Shown here piece after piece: positions 53,897 to 62,074 of a stretch of DNA of 64,000 nucleotides; the stretch's first letter is position 1, and every line of letters begins with the position of its first letter. A program made the position numbers and the translations under genes. The notes under the pieces are model-generated. The model saw nothing but the letters and a program-made list of their open reading frames with translations. It searched no databases and was not told the origin of the DNA. Origin of the DNA: Microvirga roseola (GTDB lineage: Bacteria; Pseudomonadota; Alphaproteobacteria; Rhizobiales; Beijerinckiaceae); assembly GCF_020866965.1 (NCBI RefSeq), contig NZ_JAJATX010000008.1, forward strand, positions 78,925 to 142,924, read 5' to 3'.

Positions 53897-54734
53897 GGTC
53901 AGGCCTCATAACCAGAAAGCGACAATTGCGGCGATGTGGACGGCGGCGAGATGGTTTCGGGCCAACCTGTCATAACGTGTTGCGATCCGACGGAAATCCT
54001 TGAGCCGGCAGATGGTGCGCTCGATGCGATTGCGGCCGCGATAGATCTCACGATCAAAGGGATGGCGGCGCTTGCGCGTCGGGTTGTTCGGAATTACCGG
54101 CTGCGTGCCACGCGCCAGCAGAAACCGGCGCAAACCATCGCTGTCGTAAGCCGCATCCGCCAGGCACAGACAGGGCGCCGGCAGAGCGCCGATGAGAGGG
54201 AGAGCGCCACGCGCGCATCACCGCGCTGGCCGGGGCTCAGCTCGATGGCGACCGGCCGGCCCTGGGCGTCGACCGCCGTGTGGATCTTGGTGGTGCGCCC
54301 GCCGCGCGAGCGCCCGATGGCCTGCGCCTCGCCCCCCCTTTGCCGCCGCCCGCGCAGCGATGCGCCTTGGCATGGGTGGAATCGAGCAGGAGGGCGGCTG
54401 GCGGTCCGCCGGCGCGGGAGAGTGTCTCGAACACCTCGCGCCAGACGCCCCGCGCCGCCCAGCGCACGAAGCGGTTGTAGAGGGTCTTGCGGGGGCCATA
54501 GGCGGGTGACGCATCGGCCCAGCGTCCGCCGGAGCGCAGCACCTGCACGATGCCGGAGATCACACGCCGGTCGTCCACCCGCGGCACGCCGCGGGTGTTG
54601 CTGGGCAGAAGCGGCGCATCGCGGGCAAACTGCGCGTCGGACAGCCAGAACAGATCCGTCATGGAAAGGCACCTCGCTTCAGGTCCTCACCAGATCACCA
54701 GCCAATTCCGTCCAATTCATGGGTCCAGACCCTA
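53894..54734. mobile_element. IS5-family (IS427-like) insertion sequence with TA target duplication
   Basis: The element spans 53896-54732 (837 bp). Its ends are imperfect inverted repeats: GGGTCAGGCCTCATAA at the left and the complement of TTCATGGGTCCAGACCC at the right. TA dinucleotides at 53894-53895 and 54733-54734 are the target duplication. It carries a broken transposase on the minus strand. The insertion point is inside the TAG stop of the glycosyltransferase gene, and the first G of the element rebuilds the stop. Confidence 0.88.
53906..54662 (-). pseudogene. IS5/IS427-type transposase, multiply frameshifted
   Basis: The start at 54662 gives MTDLFWLSDAQFARDAPLLP and a normal first half (to about the DSTHAKAHRC motif with its Asp). 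At AAAGGGGGGG (about 54336-54345 on the complement) the continuation AQAIGRSRGGRTTKIHT lies in another frame, as expected for the programmed slippage of this group. A second frame change near 54190-54205 (a CT dinucleotide too many) separates DARVAL from LPAPCLCLADAAYDSDGL. The last part (GRNRIERTICRLKDFRRIATRYDRL) carries the DDE glutamate. The second break suggests that the copy is dead. Confidence 0.75.
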
Positions 54735-54995: not shown

Positions 54996-57176
54996 TCAAG
55001 TCCTCAGCCAGTGCCCGAGCCTCGTCAGACGCAGCTCCTCCTCGCCGGCGACCGCCTGCGCCAGAGCTGCGCGGCTCCCGACGAGCACCACGAGGCGGCT
55101 TGCGCGGGTCACGCCCGTATAGAGATGCTTGCGCCGCAGCATCGCACCTCGCTGGAGGGTGACGGGAACAATGACGGCGGGATACTCGGACCCTTGCGCC
55201 TTGTGGATCGTTACTGCATAGGCCAGGGCCAGCTCGTCGAGTTCCTTCAGGGAATAGCCCACGAGCCGGTCCTCGAAGGCCACCGTGAGCTCCCCATGGG
55301 TCCTGTTGACCTCGCGCACGATGCCGACCTCGCCGTTATAGACGTCTCGGTCGTAGTCGTTGCGGACCTGCATGACCTTGTCGCCCGGCCCATAGACGGT
55401 GCCTGCCCGGTGGAGGCTCTCCGGCCCCGGCGGGTTGAAAAGCTGCTGCAATTCGCCGTTCAGCATGTGCGTACCGAGCTTTCCCCGGTTCATCGGGCAG
55501 ATGACCTGTACGTCGCGCATGGGATCGAGTCCGAATCTTCGCGGAATCCGCTCACGGATGAGGATCGCCACCTTGGCCATGGCGTCCAGGGGATTGTTGG
55601 CTTCGACGAAGTAGAAATCCGAATCCGCCCTGTGCTCCAGATCCGGCACCTGACCCCGGTTGATGGCGTGGGCTGCTGCGATGATGCGGCTATCCCGCTC
55701 CTGCCGGAAGACTTCCGTCAGGTGCACCACCGGAACGGCGCCGGATGCGATGATGTCTGAGAGGATCTGCCCCGGACCGATGGAGGGAAGCTGGTCCACG
55801 TCGCCGACGAGAAGCAACGAGGCCTCGTCGGGCAGCGCGCGAAGCAGCGCCGCCATCAGACGGATGTCGAGCATGGAGGCCTCGTCGACGACGAGGAGAT
55901 GGCACTCGAGCGGGGCCTTGGCGTTGCGGCGAAAGCCGCCCTCCGATGCTTCGAGCAGCCGGTGGATCGTCCTGGCAGGCGCGCCGGTGCTCTCCGCCAG
56001 ACGCTTGGCGGCGCGGCCCGTGGGCGCTGCGAGCGCAATCGTGAGGCCATGCTCCGCCGCCAGATGAGTGAGGCTTCGGATCAGGGTCGTCTTGCCCACG
56101 CCCGGTCCGCCGGTCACGACCAGCACCTTCGAGCGGCACGCCGCCGCCAGCGCCTCGCGCTGGCTCGGGGAATAGGAAACGCCGATGGCGATCTGGGCCT
56201 CCGCAATGACCTGCTTGCTGTCGAGGCGGCTCCAGGGATGCATCCCTTCCGCAAGTTCCTTCAGGCGCTGCGCGATGAAGATCTCGGCCCCGTAGAGATT
56301 CCTGAGAAAGACGCAGCGCCGCCCGTCGAGATCGTCCGCAATCAGACGGCCTGCGGCGCATTCCGCATCAAGGGCAGGCTGCAGTGCGGCCTCAGGGATT
56401 TCGAGCAGCCGGGACGCCTTGCGCAGCAGATCCTCCGCCGGCAGGCCGCAATGTCCGTCCCCCACCGCCTCGCCCAGAACGCTCGCGAGACCGGCCTGGA
56501 GCCGCACCTCGGCGCTTGGCCCGAAATCGAGCTGAGCGGCGATGCGGTCGGCGAGAGCGAACTCGAAATCGGGAAGGTCGAGGGTGAGGCTGTAGGGATT
56601 GGCCTGGATGATCTCGATCGCCTGCATCCCATAGGCGCGATAGATCCGCGTGAGCAGGAAGCCGCCGATCCCGAAGGAGTTAAGGAAAGCGGCGATGTCC
56701 TTCATCGTGCGATGCTCGGCAAAGGACGTGGCGATGCTGAGCGCTTTCGCCATGCCGATGCCGTGCACCCGCGTGAGTTCGTGCGGGCGCTGCTCGATCA
56801 CATCGAGAATACGCGAGCCGAAGGAGGCGATAAGTCTCTGCGCGCTCGACGGGCCGATGCCTTTCAGCAGCCCCGATGCGAGGAAGCGCTGCAGGTCCTC
56901 CTCCGTCGTCGGCGCGGAGGTGCGCAGTTCGCCTGCACGGAACTGAATGCCGTGATTGCGGTCCTTGAGCCAGGATCCGCTCGCCTCGACGACTTCGCCG
57001 ATGGCGATCCGCGGAGCATGGCCGACGACGGTGACCGGCTTGCGATGGCCGCGTGCCCTCACCCGCAGAACGCAGAATCCGGTCTCGTCGTTGTGGAACG
57101 TAATTCGCTCGATGGTGCCGGTGAGATGCTCTGAAAGGGAAAGCGCTTCCTGGGCGACCGCGGGGTTATTCGGCAT
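54996..57176 (-). CDS. recD2: RecD2-type SF1B DNA helicase
   Basis: The 726-residue protein has an N-terminal OB-like/HhH region (ERITFHNDETGFCVLRVRA; LLKGIGPSSAQRLIASFG) and SF1 motifs: Walker A VVTGGPGVGKTTLI, VDEASMLD, GDVDQLPSIGPG, and C-terminal AYAVTIHKAQGSEY and YTGVTRASRLV. It translocates 5'-3' on single-stranded DNA without RecB or RecC. It lies 95 bases downstream of the possible annealing protein gene with a hairpin between, so it may be controlled by the same SOS box (58008). Confidence 0.95.
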   Translation of the reverse strand: MPNNPAVAQEALSLSEHLTGTIERITFHNDETGFCVLRVRARGHRKPVTVVGHAPRIAIGEVVEASGSWLKDRNHGIQFRAGELRTSAPTTEEDLQRFLASGLLKGIGPSSAQRLIASFGSRILDVIEQRPHELTRVHGIGMAKALSIATSFAEHRTMKDIAAFLNSFGIGGFLLTRIYRAYGMQAIEIIQANPYSLTLDLPDFEFALADRIAAQLDFGPSAEVRLQAGLASVLGEAVGDGHCGLPAEDLLRKASRLLEIPEAALQPALDAECAAGRLIADDLDGRRCVFLRNLYGAEIFIAQRLKELAEGMHPWSRLDSKQVIAEAQIAIGVSYSPSQREALAAACRSKVLVVTGGPGVGKTTLIRSLTHLAAEHGLTIALAAPTGRAAKRLAESTGAPARTIHRLLEASEGGFRRNAKAPLECHLLVVDEASMLDIRLMAALLRALPDEASLLLVGDVDQLPSIGPGQILSDIIASGAVPVVHLTEVFRQERDSRIIAAAHAINRGQVPDLEHRADSDFYFVEANNPLDAMAKVAILIRERIPRRFGLDPMRDVQVICPMNRGKLGTHMLNGELQQLFNPPGPESLHRAGTVYGPGDKVMQVRNDYDRDVYNGEVGIVREVNRTHGELTVAFEDRLVGYSLKELDELALAYAVTIHKAQGSEYPAVIVPVTLQRGAMLRRKHLYTGVTRASRLVVLVGSRAALAQAVAGEEELRLTRLGHWLRT

Positions 57177-57271: not shown

Positions 57272-57934
57272 TTACGCCGCCTTCTTGGTCGGCCAGCCGA
57301 GCTCCACGAGGCGCGCCTTGGCGTAATCGCGGATCTCGTCGCGGATGCCTTCCGGAAGATCGTTGAGAAGGCGCTGCGTGTCGGCGTGGAGCATCAGGTC
57401 CGTGACCGCATTGATGGTCTTGGCCTTCTTGATCTTCTGCTTCAGCTCGTCCTCGGTCTCACCGCTGGATGCAGCCGCCTCGACCCTGCCCTTCTGCGGC
57501 TCGGTCTTCTCCACCTCGACAGGCGCTTCCATGCCGGGACGGCCCTGCTTGAACTCGTCGGCCTCCTCTTCGGAATAGACGTAGCCGTGCAGCTCGATGA
57601 GCTTGAGGATGACGCGATCCTTCGCCCGCTTCTCAGCCATGGCATAGACGTAGGCCGCCTGCTTGCCGGAGACGCGGTAGTTCACGCCGATCAGCGCCTC
57701 GCCGATGGACCACTCGACCCGGTCGCCCATGCGGCCCGTCACCTGGATCACCGCCTCGTCGCGCTCGGCGCGGATGATCTTGGGCTCGTCGAAGATAACC
57801 TTCGCCTGAGCCGCGATGCGCTCCAGGGTCTTGTGGTAGATCACGGCCGTGCCCTGGACGCGCCAGACATTGCCGGCCATGGGCTCTCCGAACTTCCCAA
57901 GCACCTCGGCGATTTTCTTGTCCGTCGTGTTCAT
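57272..57934 (-). CDS. Possible Rad52/Sak-like single-strand annealing protein, SOS-controlled
   Basis: The 220-residue protein starts MNTTDKKIAEVLGKFGEPMA. Its core is a beta-rich stretch (GTAVIYHKTLERIAAQAKVI, EAVIQVTGRM) and a helix YVYAMAEKRAKDRVILKLIE that resembles the conserved Lys/Arg helix of phage annealing proteins (Rad52/Sak groups). The C-terminal tail is charged and probably flexible. This identification is tentative, resting on pattern and context. It is preceded 74 bases upstream by an exact SOS box (58008-58022) and is followed by recD2. ATG 57934 follows AGGATCGAGA. Confidence 0.55.
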   Translation of the reverse strand: MNTTDKKIAEVLGKFGEPMAGNVWRVQGTAVIYHKTLERIAAQAKVIFDEPKIIRAERDEAVIQVTGRMGDRVEWSIGEALIGVNYRVSGKQAAYVYAMAEKRAKDRVILKLIELHGYVYSEEEADEFKQGRPGMEAPVEVEKTEPQKGRVEAAASSGETEDELKQKIKKAKTINAVTDLMLHADTQRLLNDLPEGIRDEIRDYAKARLVELGWPTKKAA

Positions 57935-58007
57935 TCTCGATCCTACTCTCAAAGGTGCCCGCAATCGGTCCCACGCTCTTTCTGACAGGCTCTGATCGGA
58001 CAGGCAT

Positions 58008-58286: not shown

Positions 58287-58937
58287 ATGTCTGCGCAAGA
58301 GATCCTCGACCTGGCGGACCGGCGCCCCGCCCGCCGCTCCGGATCCCGGCGCGCCCAGAAGCGCCCGTCCACGCCGCTGACCCGCAACGGGCTCATCGCC
58401 GACTTCCTGGGGATCTGCGAGCTCGATCCCGAGGTCGAGACCTTGCGTGCGCCGGCCGATCCGGCCACGTTCGAGATCGGCGGCGAGACCGTCGAGCATG
58501 TCGCCGATTTCGAGATCGTGCGGGATGGCGTTTCCTCCCTCGTCGATGTGATGACGGATGACGACCTGCTGACCCATTCCCTGCGCGCGGCGGCCCTGCA
58601 CGGCGTGACGGCGCAGGATGGACGCCCTTTCCTGATCGAGACCGCCGCGAGCATCCGCGCCGAGCCGCGCTTCACGACGGTGCGCCTCGTCATGGCCTGC
58701 AAGCGCACGTCCGTCACAGCCGGCGACCGGGTGCGGATCCTGCATCAGCTCGATGAGGTCGGCGCCATGCGGCTGGTCGATTGCGCGAGCGGCGTCATGA
58801 ACACGCAGGACGGCGTCGCCGCCGTCCTGGCGCTGGCCTGCGAAGGCCTGATCGCGGTCGATATCAGCCGCCCCATCCTTCCTGAGACGCAGGTGCGCCG
58901 ACGCCGCCTGCCCTATTCCGATCCATTCGGGTTCTAG
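58287..58937 (+). CDS. SOS-controlled protein of unknown function (weak TnsA-like pattern)
   Basis: The 216-residue protein begins MSAQEILDLADRRPARRSGS with a basic, probably disordered N-terminus. Its core (LIADFLGICELDPEVETL, HVADFEIVRDGVSSLVDVM) recalls the start of a TnsA-type or other PD-(D/E)xK nuclease fold, but the catalytic ExK is replaced by VDVMTDDD. It may be a non-catalytic relative. The C-terminal half is helix/strand-rich with no motif recognised. ATG 58287 has GGAGG 7 bases upstream. It has its own SOS box and promoter and converges on the SbcD-like gene. Confidence 0.7.
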   Translation: MSAQEILDLADRRPARRSGSRRAQKRPSTPLTRNGLIADFLGICELDPEVETLRAPADPATFEIGGETVEHVADFEIVRDGVSSLVDVMTDDDLLTHSLRAAALHGVTAQDGRPFLIETAASIRAEPRFTTVRLVMACKRTSVTAGDRVRILHQLDEVGAMRLVDCASGVMNTQDGVAAVLALACEGLIAVDISRPILPETQVRRRRLPYSDPFGF

Positions 58938-58947
58938 AACCGTTGCT

Positions 58948-59949
58948 CTAGGATTGGGCCGCGTGGCGCTCCACCGCCTCAGAGAGGAGCGAGCGCACGA
59001 TCGCGCGCACCGCGTCCGACGTGTTGTCCTCTGAGAATTTCGCCTCAATTTCGTCGCGGACGATGGAGCCGTCGCCGCTGCGCTTCAGCTCCGTCGAAGT
59101 CTCGGCCTGAAGCAGCGTGACGAAGGCGCTCTCGACCTCGCGCGCGACTGCCCCAGCATCGGCCGCATCGACAAGGCGTCCCGTCAGGTCGAACACGCCG
59201 CTCTCGAAGGGCAGCGCCTGTGCCTCCAGTTCACCGCCCGCGTCGAGAATCCAGGCGCGTGGAACGTGATCGACGAGATCCACCGATTGCCGGGTGATGT
59301 TGCCGGGATTGGCCCAGCGCGTCCGGCCCGCGAGAACCGATTTCTGCGTCTTGTGAATGTGCCCGTTCACGAGAAGGTCGCAGCCTTCCACCGCGAAGGG
59401 CGGAACCGCTCCGGGATAGCCGCCATCGAAAGCGATGTCGTGGTGGGTGAACCAGGCCTGCAGATCGACGCCGGAGAAGGAGCCGCGCATGTCCGTCGGG
59501 ATCGCCTGGCCGTAGGGCGTCATGCCGATCCCTAACCGGCGCGTACCGATCAGGACCTCCATTACGGGGGCGGAGGTCGCCACCACATCGACCACGTCGC
59601 AGAGCCCGAGGAGCGCCAGCGAGTCGCTGTCGGTGAGCACCGTGTGCTGGATGTCGTGGTTGCCCACATTCACGATGGGACGGCGGCGAAATCCCTTAAG
59701 GACCCGGATGAGCTGGTTCTTCAGCGACTCGTCAGGTTCCACGGGCCTGTCGAAGAGATCGCCGAGGATGATGACGCCAAGATCGCGCTCATTTGCAATG
59801 GCGACGCAACGCTCGAGCTTGCCGAGCACGGCCTGCGGCCACACGGCATCCCTGCGCCGCCCCGGACGGCGCGAGCCTACATGCGGGTCGCCGATGACGA
59901 GAAGGCCCTCGCAGGCCACGGGTTCGAGACGGTCTCCAGACAGGATCAT
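58948..59949 (-). CDS. SbcD/Mre11-like metallophosphoesterase
   Basis: The 333-residue protein carries the five phosphoesterase motifs: GDPHVG (about residue 20), GDLFD (63-67), GNHD (96-99), THHD (168-171) and GHIH (196-199). The C-terminal tail is a capping region. It would be the nuclease partner of the SMC-like ATPase encoded directly upstream, whose stop overlaps this ATG (ATGA). Shared translation suggests a fixed 1:1 or 2:2 complex like SbcCD. It is the last gene of the minus-strand operon starting near 62074. Confidence 0.88.
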   Translation of the reverse strand: MILSGDRLEPVACEGLLVIGDPHVGSRRPGRRRDAVWPQAVLGKLERCVAIANERDLGVIILGDLFDRPVEPDESLKNQLIRVLKGFRRRPIVNVGNHDIQHTVLTDSDSLALLGLCDVVDVVATSAPVMEVLIGTRRLGIGMTPYGQAIPTDMRGSFSGVDLQAWFTHHDIAFDGGYPGAVPPFAVEGCDLLVNGHIHKTQKSVLAGRTRWANPGNITRQSVDLVDHVPRAWILDAGGELEAQALPFESGVFDLTGRLVDAADAGAVAREVESAFVTLLQAETSTELKRSGDGSIVRDEIEAKFSEDNTSDAVRAIVRSLLSEAVERHAAQS

Positions 59950-61781
59950 GCGGTCAGCCGCTCCGAGGGCTTCGAGGAATGGGACGAATGGGCGTGATGC
60001 TCCAGCAGGTTGTCGGCGCTGACCGGCGAGCCGCAGGTGGGGCAGAGCCCGCCTGTCTCCTCGACCAATTGCGCCATCTCGGCCTGGACGGATTTCAGCT
60101 CCTCGTCGATCTTCGCCATGCGGCCCTGGACGATCAGGGCGGCGCTGCGCAGATCGGTGAGGCGCTTGAGGATGTCTTTCTGCGGCCCCGTGTTTTCAAG
60201 GGCCGGAACGGTTGCAGGCAGGTCCCGCAGCGCCGCAGCCCGGTGCTTGGCGTTGGCGAGCGAGCGCGAGATCTGCACGACTTGGCGGCCGAGCCGCTCG
60301 CGTTCGCGGCTCCGTTCGACCGTCCGGCTCAGCTTTGCCAGCTGCTCCGGCTCCGGCAGCGCCGCCGTCGCCTCGGTCCGCGCCTTCGCCTTCGCCAGGC
60401 GCTGCCGGATGCCGGACAGCTGCATCGCGCGCGCCTGAAGCCTCTCGAGGCGAAGGGTGGCAGCCTTGACCTGATCGGCCTGCCCTCGCGCCTGTGCCAG
60501 ATCCTCCTTCAAGGAATCGAGCTCGACCAGCTGGTCGAGCGTTTCCTTCAGCGCGATCAGCTCCTTCTCGCCATTGCGGACGAGGGCGTTGTCGCGCGCG
60601 CAGCGTTCGCGATGGATGACGAGCATGTCGCGGATGTAGCTCGCCTCCTGTCCAATGGAGAGAACAGCCGAACGCCGCGAGGCGGTCTCGCCGAGGAGGA
60701 AGACGGGAAACTTCTGGTGCGCGATATGGACGTCGAGGTCCTCCACCTTGGTGATGCGGAAGAGGTCGGCCGCCCAGTCCGGGACGTTGCGTCCGCCGGT
60801 CTCGTAGCGCATGCCCTTCTCCTCGACGACGGAGCCGTCCGCCTCGTGCAGGGACCAGACATTGACCGGCGAGCGGCGCGGCTGGCGCGTGAAGCGTAGA
60901 ACCCGCCTGCCTGCAACCCCGATCTCGACAGTGGCGGCTTTCGTCCCGGCGCGCACGAGACTGTCGCGCGCCTCGCCGTAGAACACGGCGCGCAGGCTGC
61001 GGATGAAGGTGGACTTGCCCCGGTTGTTCGGTCCGATCAGGGCGTTCACGCCGGGGCTCAAGTGAAGCGTCGCATCCTCATAAGCCTGCACGTTGACGAG
61101 GCGGATGAAGCGCAGGCCCGGCTGCACATCGTCCCATTGCGGGCCGGTATCGACAGATTGCACCGTCACCCCGGAGCCGGGCTCGCCGACGATGCGCGCG
61201 ATATGGAACTTGCCGGAGAACTGCGACAGGTCGTGGTGGGAAACGGCAAGGCACTGCACGCCGAGCCGCGCAGCGCCGTCCTCCAGGACCTTGTAGAAGG
61301 ACGAGACGCGACCGGGCGCGATCCAGCAATCCGCCTCGTCGAGGGCGAGAAAGCGCGCTACATCCGCCTTGACCACCGCGATCAGCCGCAGGGCCATGCC
61401 GATCACGTTGGTAAGCGCGCCGCCATTGTCCTCCAGCACGTCTTCCAGGGTGCCGTCCGGACGCCTCACGCAGATATCGAGGGAGGCCAGCCCGCGCTCC
61501 GTCGAGAGTTCGAGCGCCACGGGCTTCTCGCCGGGCAGCACTTCCTGCACGAGGACCGTGAGCAGCGTCTCGAAGGCCGCGAGGCTGCGGCGGCTCGCGC
61601 TGCCGTGCACCGCTTCGATGAAGGCTTCCACCTCGTCCTTGACGGCAAGCCTTCCCTTGGCGAACTCCACGTCGCGGGTCAGCTCCGCGATGCGCGCTAC
61701 GACGCCATCGCGGCGGCCATCGAGGCGCGCGAGCAAGGCAGCGACGCGCGCCACATCATGGTCGATGGCGTGCACGCTCAA
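59946..61781 (-). CDS. Rad50/SbcC-like ATPase with circularly permuted domain order
   Basis: The 611-residue protein has the parts of an SMC/Rad50 ATPase in an unusual order. Residues 1-60 are coiled coil. Residues 75-200 form the C-lobe: signature-like NGGALTNVIGMALRLI (119-134), Walker B FLALDEAD (144-151) and the H-loop AVSHHD (179-184). Residues 225-365 form the N-lobe: Walker A IGPNNRGKS (249-257) and the Q-loop IAHQKFP (353-359). A coiled coil follows (about 370-575), then a C-terminal hook CPTC (580-583). In classical Rad50 the N-lobe comes first and the hook lies in the middle. The start is TTG 61781 in a TTGA overlap with the coiled-coil gene; GTG 61775 is possible. Confidence 0.85.
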   Translation of the reverse strand: MSVHAIDHDVARVAALLARLDGRRDGVVARIAELTRDVEFAKGRLAVKDEVEAFIEAVHGSASRRSLAAFETLLTVLVQEVLPGEKPVALELSTERGLASLDICVRRPDGTLEDVLEDNGGALTNVIGMALRLIAVVKADVARFLALDEADCWIAPGRVSSFYKVLEDGAARLGVQCLAVSHHDLSQFSGKFHIARIVGEPGSGVTVQSVDTGPQWDDVQPGLRFIRLVNVQAYEDATLHLSPGVNALIGPNNRGKSTFIRSLRAVFYGEARDSLVRAGTKAATVEIGVAGRRVLRFTRQPRRSPVNVWSLHEADGSVVEEKGMRYETGGRNVPDWAADLFRITKVEDLDVHIAHQKFPVFLLGETASRRSAVLSIGQEASYIRDMLVIHRERCARDNALVRNGEKELIALKETLDQLVELDSLKEDLAQARGQADQVKAATLRLERLQARAMQLSGIRQRLAKAKARTEATAALPEPEQLAKLSRTVERSRERERLGRQVVQISRSLANAKHRAAALRDLPATVPALENTGPQKDILKRLTDLRSAALIVQGRMAKIDEELKSVQAEMAQLVEETGGLCPTCGSPVSADNLLEHHAHSSHSSKPSERLTA

Positions 61782-62074
61782 CGCTCGTCCCCAAGCTGCC
61801 GGAGGCGGGTTTCGATATCGCGGAGAGCGTCTCCGAATTCCTCGACAAGCTTGGCGTTCTGCGTGAGCGCCGTCTCGATCAGCTGCTGGATCGCCGCCTC
61901 GTCATCCATGCCGAATTCATCAAGCGCGACCTTACGCGCCTCCTCCAGCTCGGCCGATAGGCGCTCGACCTCGCCTTCCGCGCGGATCCGCTCCGCCCGA
62001 AGCTTGTCGAAGGTCTTCCGCATTTCTTCGAGGCGCCGCAGGCTATCCGATTCCAGGCGTGTCAGGCTCGTCAT
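61778..62074 (-). CDS. Short coiled-coil protein, coupled to the permuted ATPase gene
   Basis: The 98-residue protein (from ATG 62074) is almost wholly alpha-helical, with a heptad-like region (LEEMRKTFDKLRAERIRAEG, RLSAELEEARKVAL) and no Cys or enzyme motif. Its stop overlaps the ATPase TTG start. It may supply the missing part of the second coiled-coil arm of the permuted ATPase (arm two in the ATPase is only about 60 residues against about 200 for arm one). That is inference. A start at 62104 (TTG) is also possible, but without a ribosome-binding site. Confidence 0.65.
   Translation of the reverse strand: MTSLTRLESDSLRRLEEMRKTFDKLRAERIRAEGEVERLSAELEEARKVALDEFGMDDEAAIQQLIETALTQNAKLVEEFGDALRDIETRLRQLGDER

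Follow-up and report, generated by a model that had tools for sequence, protein, structure and literature searches.

In Microvirga roseola, a gene was identified that encodes a circularly permuted Rad50-type ATPase. In this protein, the two lobes of the ATPase head are present in one chain in swapped order, and the hook motif is located close to the C-terminus. The gene lies in a stretch of 64,000 nt of contig NZ_JAJATX010000008.1 (positions 78,925 to 142,924), referred to here as the window. It is the middle one of three minus-strand genes, preceded by a gene for a small coiled-coil protein and followed by a gene for an Mre11/SbcD-type phosphoesterase (Table 1). The ATPase gene overlaps each neighbor by 4 nt, the upstream coil gene at 61778-61781 and the downstream phosphoesterase gene at 59946-59949. 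Proteins of the SMC/Rad50 type consist of one folded-back chain with the head and the hook or hinge at opposite ends. The operon probably specifies a permuted Mre11-Rad50 machine of the SbcCD type, which would bind, tether, and trim broken DNA ends; the architecture itself is held with more confidence than this reading as a whole.

The initial annotation had proposed that in this single frame a C-lobe with a signature-like motif, Walker B, and H-loop precedes an N-lobe with Walker A and Q-loop. All of these motifs were located, and in profile searches and fold comparisons each half of the ATPase matched the opposite half of Rad50, so that the identity of the C-lobe stands. A Rad50-type N-lobe with Walker A and Q-loop and a Rad50-type C-lobe with signature, Walker B, and H-loop are thus both present, the signature in a different form, but neither the order with the N-lobe first and the C-lobe last nor the CxxC hook in the middle of the hairpin, as known from Rad50 and SbcC, is found. 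The short linker expected around residues 200-225 could be narrowed to approximately residues 209-220 by the ends of the lobe matches. As also predicted, a helical arm leads to CPTC at residues 580-583. An SMC hinge domain between the coils was not detected in the ATPase; its arm extends to CPTC, after which 28 residues follow. The structure of the ATPase alone was predicted with AlphaFold2, yielding two helices in front of the C-lobe and three in the arm. With the whole model as query, Foldseek gave low scores (about 0.2 for TM by query length) and only 3 hits at E 0.001, because one lobe was matched at a time. The rows obtained with VIA-align for the whole model cover the N-lobe and the helices without the C-lobe, and therefore a model of the C-lobe of a split relative was also run (pLDDT 71.2).

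Table 1. Genes, domains, and motifs of the permuted Rad50 operon in the window
Feature	Position	Strand	Basis and remarks
Small coiled-coil gene, predicted distal return strand	61778..62074	-	98 aa from ATG; profile match upstream of two-lobe ORFs
Permuted Rad50-type ATPase	59946..61781	-	611 aa, TTG start at 61781
Residues 1-81, two helices into C-lobe (proximal return strand)	61539..61781	-	AlphaFold2 helices 3-46, 48-81
Rad50 C-lobe, residues 82-208 (end approximate)	61158..61538	-	Profile and fold matches
Signature-like motif NGGALTNVIGMALRLI, residues 119-134	61380..61427	-	Sequence; G121, N125, R132 invariant (22 rows)
Walker B FLALDEAD, residues 144-151	61329..61352	-	Sequence; D148, E149, D151 invariant (22 rows)
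H-loop SHHD, residues 181-184	61230..61241	-	Sequence; H182 invariant (22 rows)
Linker from C-lobe end to N-lobe start, ~12 residues, ~209-220	61122..61157	-	C-lobe matches extend to profile position 208; N-lobe match from 221
Rad50 N-lobe, residues 221-378	60648..61121	-	Profile and fold matches; residue 221 = Rad50 residue 1
Walker A GPNNRGKS, residues 250-257	61011..61034	-	Sequence; G250, G255, K256 invariant (22 rows)
Q-loop glutamine Q356	60714..60716	-	Invariant (22 rows)
Arm, residues 378-575, helices 378-473, 478-519, 532-575	60057..60650	-	AlphaFold2; block pLDDT 55-96 along arm
Terminal hook motif CPTC, residues 580-583	60033..60044	-	Sequence; CxxC conserved in relatives
His-rich tail HHAHSSH, residues 595-601, behind hook	59979..59999	-	HxH behind hook in 47/63 relatives
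Mre11/SbcD-type phosphoesterase	58948..59949	-	333 aa; Metallophos 5e-06; phrog_100 9.4e-13
Motif GDPH, residues 20-23	59881..59892	-	Partner alignment
Motif GNHD, residues 96-99	59653..59664	-	Partner alignment
Motif THHD, residues 168-171	59437..59448	-	Partner alignment
Motif NGHIH, residues 195-199	59353..59367	-	Partner alignment

To the window were added plasmid loci and loci from genome contigs (57 of the latter), and the resulting 72 loci were scanned with profiles. Both lobes were detected within one ORF in 69 loci, with the C-lobe first in every case; homologues with the same domain order, for which a search had been suggested, are therefore numerous. The three remaining loci contain split genes (L013, L085) or a fragment at a contig edge (L086). 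In 66 of the 69 two-lobe ORFs, a terminal CxxC is located less than 70 residues from the end of the chain; the other three (L070, L074, L084) are truncated at contig ends. A gene for the small coil was found upstream of all 69, a count that is partly circular since the profile was built from 26 of the scanned loci, while adjacency and strand are not affected. Downstream, the phosphoesterase was detected by the scan in 58 loci and by tblastn in eight more (66/69), and the remaining three are again cut by contig ends.

In the plasmid collection, 22 records matched the permuted protein, 21 of them with a single continuous match covering parts of both lobes (26-48% identity; record lengths 253 kb to 1.3 Mb). 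Thirteen of these 21 were opened, and among the 14 plasmid records opened in total 13 contain the three-gene cassette, while Cetobacterium p3 carries a split form. The same architecture occurs on a complete chromosome and on plasmid records titled complete; in Microvirga sp. VF16 the cassette (L053) is chromosomal. Named relatives of the ATPase, among the best 120 of 367 matches, belong to Microvirga (76-82% identity). A full-length gene is present in 42 of 48 Microvirga genomes, five others showing short weak matches only and one a fragment. In the phylum, matches at 1e-30 were obtained in 2 of 398 genomes, namely that of the window and another from its family. The permuted gene is thus near-core within the genus and patchy outside. 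One Microvirga genome (G008) harbors two copies (C22, C33), the second being more distant (434 vs 791 bits). A metagenomic ORF of 711 residues (P0094) joins the coil and ATPase genes, but its garbled joint resembles a frameshift, and it was set aside. Searches for the permuted form in phages gave no hit: the protein matched none of 50,697 phage records, and two scans of viral contigs with it and one with the split C-lobe of L085 were likewise empty. Absence from the viral contigs is weak evidence, because such scans demand near-exact motifs.

The phosphoesterase of the window retains all five phosphoesterase motifs, and, as for Rad50 and SbcC, the ATPase gene shares its operon with an Mre11/SbcD-type nuclease gene. 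Ten other partners of the active type, mostly alphaproteobacterial plus those of Variovorax and Novimethylophilus, keep the motifs with small variations (GSHD and THED in L083). In gammaproteobacterial plasmids the situation is different. Seven of 12 such hits were read (L004, L005, L008, L010, L011, L012, L015; from Pseudomonas, Vibrio, Alteromonas, and Aeromonas), and GNHD and GHxH are gone in all seven. Pfam did not reveal a phosphoesterase in the four gammaproteobacterial partners scanned, but profile comparison with the active set gave a probability of 99.2%. By their motifs, these plasmid partners appear to be pseudo-nucleases.

Models for the canonical proteins detected little in these genomes. 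The 17 NCBIfam matches of the ATPase do not include SbcC (TIGR00618), no match over the cut-off was obtained in the window's genome, and in nine Microvirga genomes with the permuted gene there was none over the cut-off and none beyond the N-terminal stretch; of 14 control genomes, only one passed this cut-off, and only part of the candidates was scored. SbcD (TIGR00619) was not listed among the NCBIfam matches for P0003, and the nine genomes of the genus yielded four partial matches below the cut-off (3.9e-16, 6.5e-14, 3.4e-5, 3.6e-4). Since the window's genome gave no match, this model is blind to the operon's own phosphoesterase.

Relatives in which the lobes are specified by separate genes were instructive for the role of the small coil. 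With the C-lobe ORF of L085 as query, 1684 proteins were obtained at E<=1e-3; a relative among the best 120 of these, P0298, is from Planctomycetes. In the phylum of G452, the genome that contains L085, a separate C-lobe was detected in 10 of 294 genomes, and all ten cassettes, seen in stretches of 10 kb or 8.5 kb, show the order N-lobe to CPxC (N), phosphoesterase (D), small coil (s), and C-lobe (C) on one strand. Some of them are near copies. Their phosphoesterases keep GDPH, GNHD, and GHxH in 10/10. Another order, N-s-C-D with a small ORF in place of s, was found in Cetobacterium p3 and Bacillus phage vB_BboS-125. In the Tunturi_5 phage, N-lobe, small ORF, and phosphoesterase are present, without a C-lobe gene within 10.5 kb, and L089 shows N-lobe and phosphoesterase only. 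Wherever the small gene is present in these four arrangements or fragments, it follows the half with the hook and precedes the C-lobe, as would be expected for a return strand. The Cetobacterium N-lobe matched 11 phage records, of which three were opened, but its C-lobe matched none. The N half of Cetobacterium p3 is itself divided into two ORFs, and its operon includes an IscB gene (L013:6201-7454); in vB_BboS-125 the next gene after the N half specifies an AP2-domain protein (L088:6398-6970). Both of these genes within split operons are of a homing or RNA-guided type.

The small protein of the window (108 aa in the ORF as listed, from an earlier TTG) consists, as read by eye, of two helices of about 43 and 38 residues separated by a break at EFGMDDE. 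In all ten N-D-s-C cassettes, the small-coil gene directly precedes the C-lobe gene and matches the profile of the permuted family (4e-19 to 8e-23). For the small ORFs of Cetobacterium p3 and vB_BboS-125 this profile was blank at E 0.01 and another search gave a weak result. The order of the window, s, C fused to N, and D, is a rotation of N-D-s-C. Because of this relation to the sister cassettes, the small coil most likely completes the distal part of the Rad50 arm. The strand lengths in the window are alike, with 96, 42, and 44 residues up and about 43 and 38 (small coil) plus 79 (residues 3-81) down, which is suggestive only.

A tree was calculated from both lobes (50 rows, 381 columns) and rooted on four phage and Cetobacterium split rows, because SbcC of the E. 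coli type was too distant, giving weak or no matches. The 36 permuted rows form a single clade (100/98), and the ten N-D-s-C rows form a separate one (100/100), which is the sister of the permuted clade when so rooted. The tree program flags long branches meeting at the root and an odd letter composition in seven rows. The permuted form may therefore have arisen once, from a rotated ancestral split operon. In the simplest scenario, the split operon would have been duplicated in tandem, a C-lobe gene fused to the next N-lobe gene, and the outer copies lost; starting from N-s-C-D, N could possibly have moved past s and C instead. With four pieces, a rotation is obtained by chance in about 1 of 6 cases. 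Order alone is therefore weak, and the case rests on the tree and on the identity of the pieces. That a whole machine of the SMC/Rad50 type has been naturally permuted by rotation of its operon, with a swapped-lobe head, a hook at a free end, a separable return strand, a ring that could open by subunit exchange, and one branch turned into a nuclease-dead megaplasmid tether, has in our estimation an even chance of being correct.

How the machine might work can be outlined. The two lobes of one chain would fold into one ABC head, and two heads would sandwich two ATP. Starting at the N-lobe, the arm would rise to the terminal hook; the small coil would run back alongside it to the helices leading into the C-lobe, with the Mre11-like partner near the base of the arm. 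Two arms may be joined by their terminal hooks through zinc, perhaps with the help of the His-rich tails. Binding and hydrolysis of ATP would toggle the nuclease between a shielded and a DNA-engaged state, as in SbcCD. On gammaproteobacterial megaplasmids, the machine, nuclease-dead as judged from sequence, could act as a tether or clamp. The helicase gene and other neighbors described below fit a machine acting on DNA ends.

The joining of arms could be replaced by a different arrangement, in which the lobes are permuted, but CPxC and the His-rich tail bind zinc within each chain as a Cys2His2-like cap. The small coil would then be a cap or regulator, and the arms would remain free on a head-only clamp with nuclease. 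An alignment (A3) was made of 63 chosen rows, many of them closely related to one another; truncated hits, for instance P0193 with its end in the arm, were excluded. HxH follows the hook in 47 of these rows, and 54 have two or more His there; the tail contains 14% His versus 2.5% overall. Six of the ten N-D-s-C chains terminate in GHxH followed by one or two residues. The arms also vary in length, with Walker A-hook distances of 290-409 residues in the permuted rows measured (P0191 has no match to the Walker A pattern) and 311-467 in N-D-s-C rows, and the small coil shows no matching change. On the other hand, CxxC is present in 63/63 rows (CPxC in 62), whereas 16 are without HxH, and since three canonical SbcC chains also have one His after CPxCG, a nearby His is not special by itself. 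We consider the zinc cap unlikely, if worth keeping in mind; a zinc-bridged dimer of hooks is a putative arrangement, proposed from the motif. Many pairs of arms differ by about 37-40 residues, prolines recur at similar spacing, and the arms of permuted and split N halves look as if built from repeated units.

Less likely still is an SMC-like clamp for large replicons, acting in plasmid or chromosome maintenance independently of a nuclease, with the phosphoesterase being mainly structural. This would explain why the phosphoesterase gene stays in the operon in the seven gammaproteobacterial cases in which its motifs are missing, and why 21 of the 22 plasmid hits run through both lobes, on large records, but not the five intact motifs in the window, the GDPH, GNHD, and GHxH of the ten N-D-s-C partners, or the chromosomal cassette of strain VF16. 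Anti-phage or anti-plasmid defence of the Lamassu or Wadjet kind was suggested by the best PADLOC match of the ATPase, LmuB (2.8e-11). This match is restricted to residues 237-591, N-lobe and coil. For the coil gene and the phosphoesterase, none of the PADLOC models gave a hit at E 0.01, so that no partner genes of Lamassu or Wadjet were recognized. Most defence islands are also unlike a near-core gene with conserved neighbors in the loci read, and defence was rejected as very improbable. For an ordinary ABC fusion or an assembly artefact with unrelated lobes, the sole argument is that the window belongs to a draft genome (5.08 Mb in 230 contigs). It is refuted by the recurrence of the architecture in many genomes, complete records included, and retains practically no probability. 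The permuted Mre11-Rad50 machine is thus preferred.

Behind the cassette lie a gene for a RecD2-type helicase (54996-57176, minus strand) and two genes whose products match neither Pfam nor PHROG (57272-57964, minus strand; 58287-58937, plus strand). This row is conserved in those Microvirga loci that were read, and to some extent also in Methylobacterium and Aurantimonadaceae. In these Microvirga loci the cassette is followed by the opposite-strand ORF, p57272, and, in many with a sufficient stretch, the RecD2 helicase. Short overlapping ORFs at 53906-54672 (minus strand) resemble pieces of a transposase, as judged by eye.

Other rearrangements of this pair of proteins are known. In Mre11/Rad50 fusions (Mimivirus R555 and others), Mre11 is fused before Rad50, also on plasmids and in viruses, but the parts of that report consulted describe no permutation (PMC3175470); the best BFVD fold match of the ATPase model is such a fusion from a Bacillus phage (A7KV18). 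SbcCD is near-universal in jumbo phages, according to the sections seen of PMC7824862. A permuted Rad50 is not described in the portions consulted of PMC7824862, PMC3175470, and PMC10853773, nor was one found in open-access PMC text, a search that covers neither subscription papers nor most preprints; the 2020 NAR classification of ABC ATPases may hold one. For a split Rad50 system, too, no description was found in open-access full text. Lamassu LmuB shares a Rad50-like N-lobe and coil with the ATPase, but has the usual lobe order and other partners. The split operons N-D-s-C (phylum of G452), the sister clade, and N-s-C-D (phage and Cetobacterium; phrog_16465, phrog_15167) contain the same four pieces, but the two lobes are encoded separately there and follow each other in the usual order.

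A natural protein whose chain is interrupted both at the hook and between segments of the arm, and whose lobes are fused in reverse, would make it possible to test which connections are needed, be it the hook, arm continuity, or ring closure. Split and permuted operons together would make a protein permutation traceable through gene order, a split sister, and one origin, and the branch with degenerate nucleases may separate the clamp role from the nuclease role. If the reading is correct, one of the most ancient repair machines can be opened and reconnected in a different order. Compared to Mre11-Rad50 and SbcCD, the operon has the Rad50-type lobes with their motifs, a helical arm, a CxxC hook motif, and an adjacent Mre11-type phosphoesterase in common. 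It differs in the signature, which is GG(A/S)xxN in most permuted rows and SGG(E/Q) in SbcC and Rad50, in the swapped lobes of one chain, in the hook at the chain end, and in a return strand of which one part is predicted to be a separate small protein.
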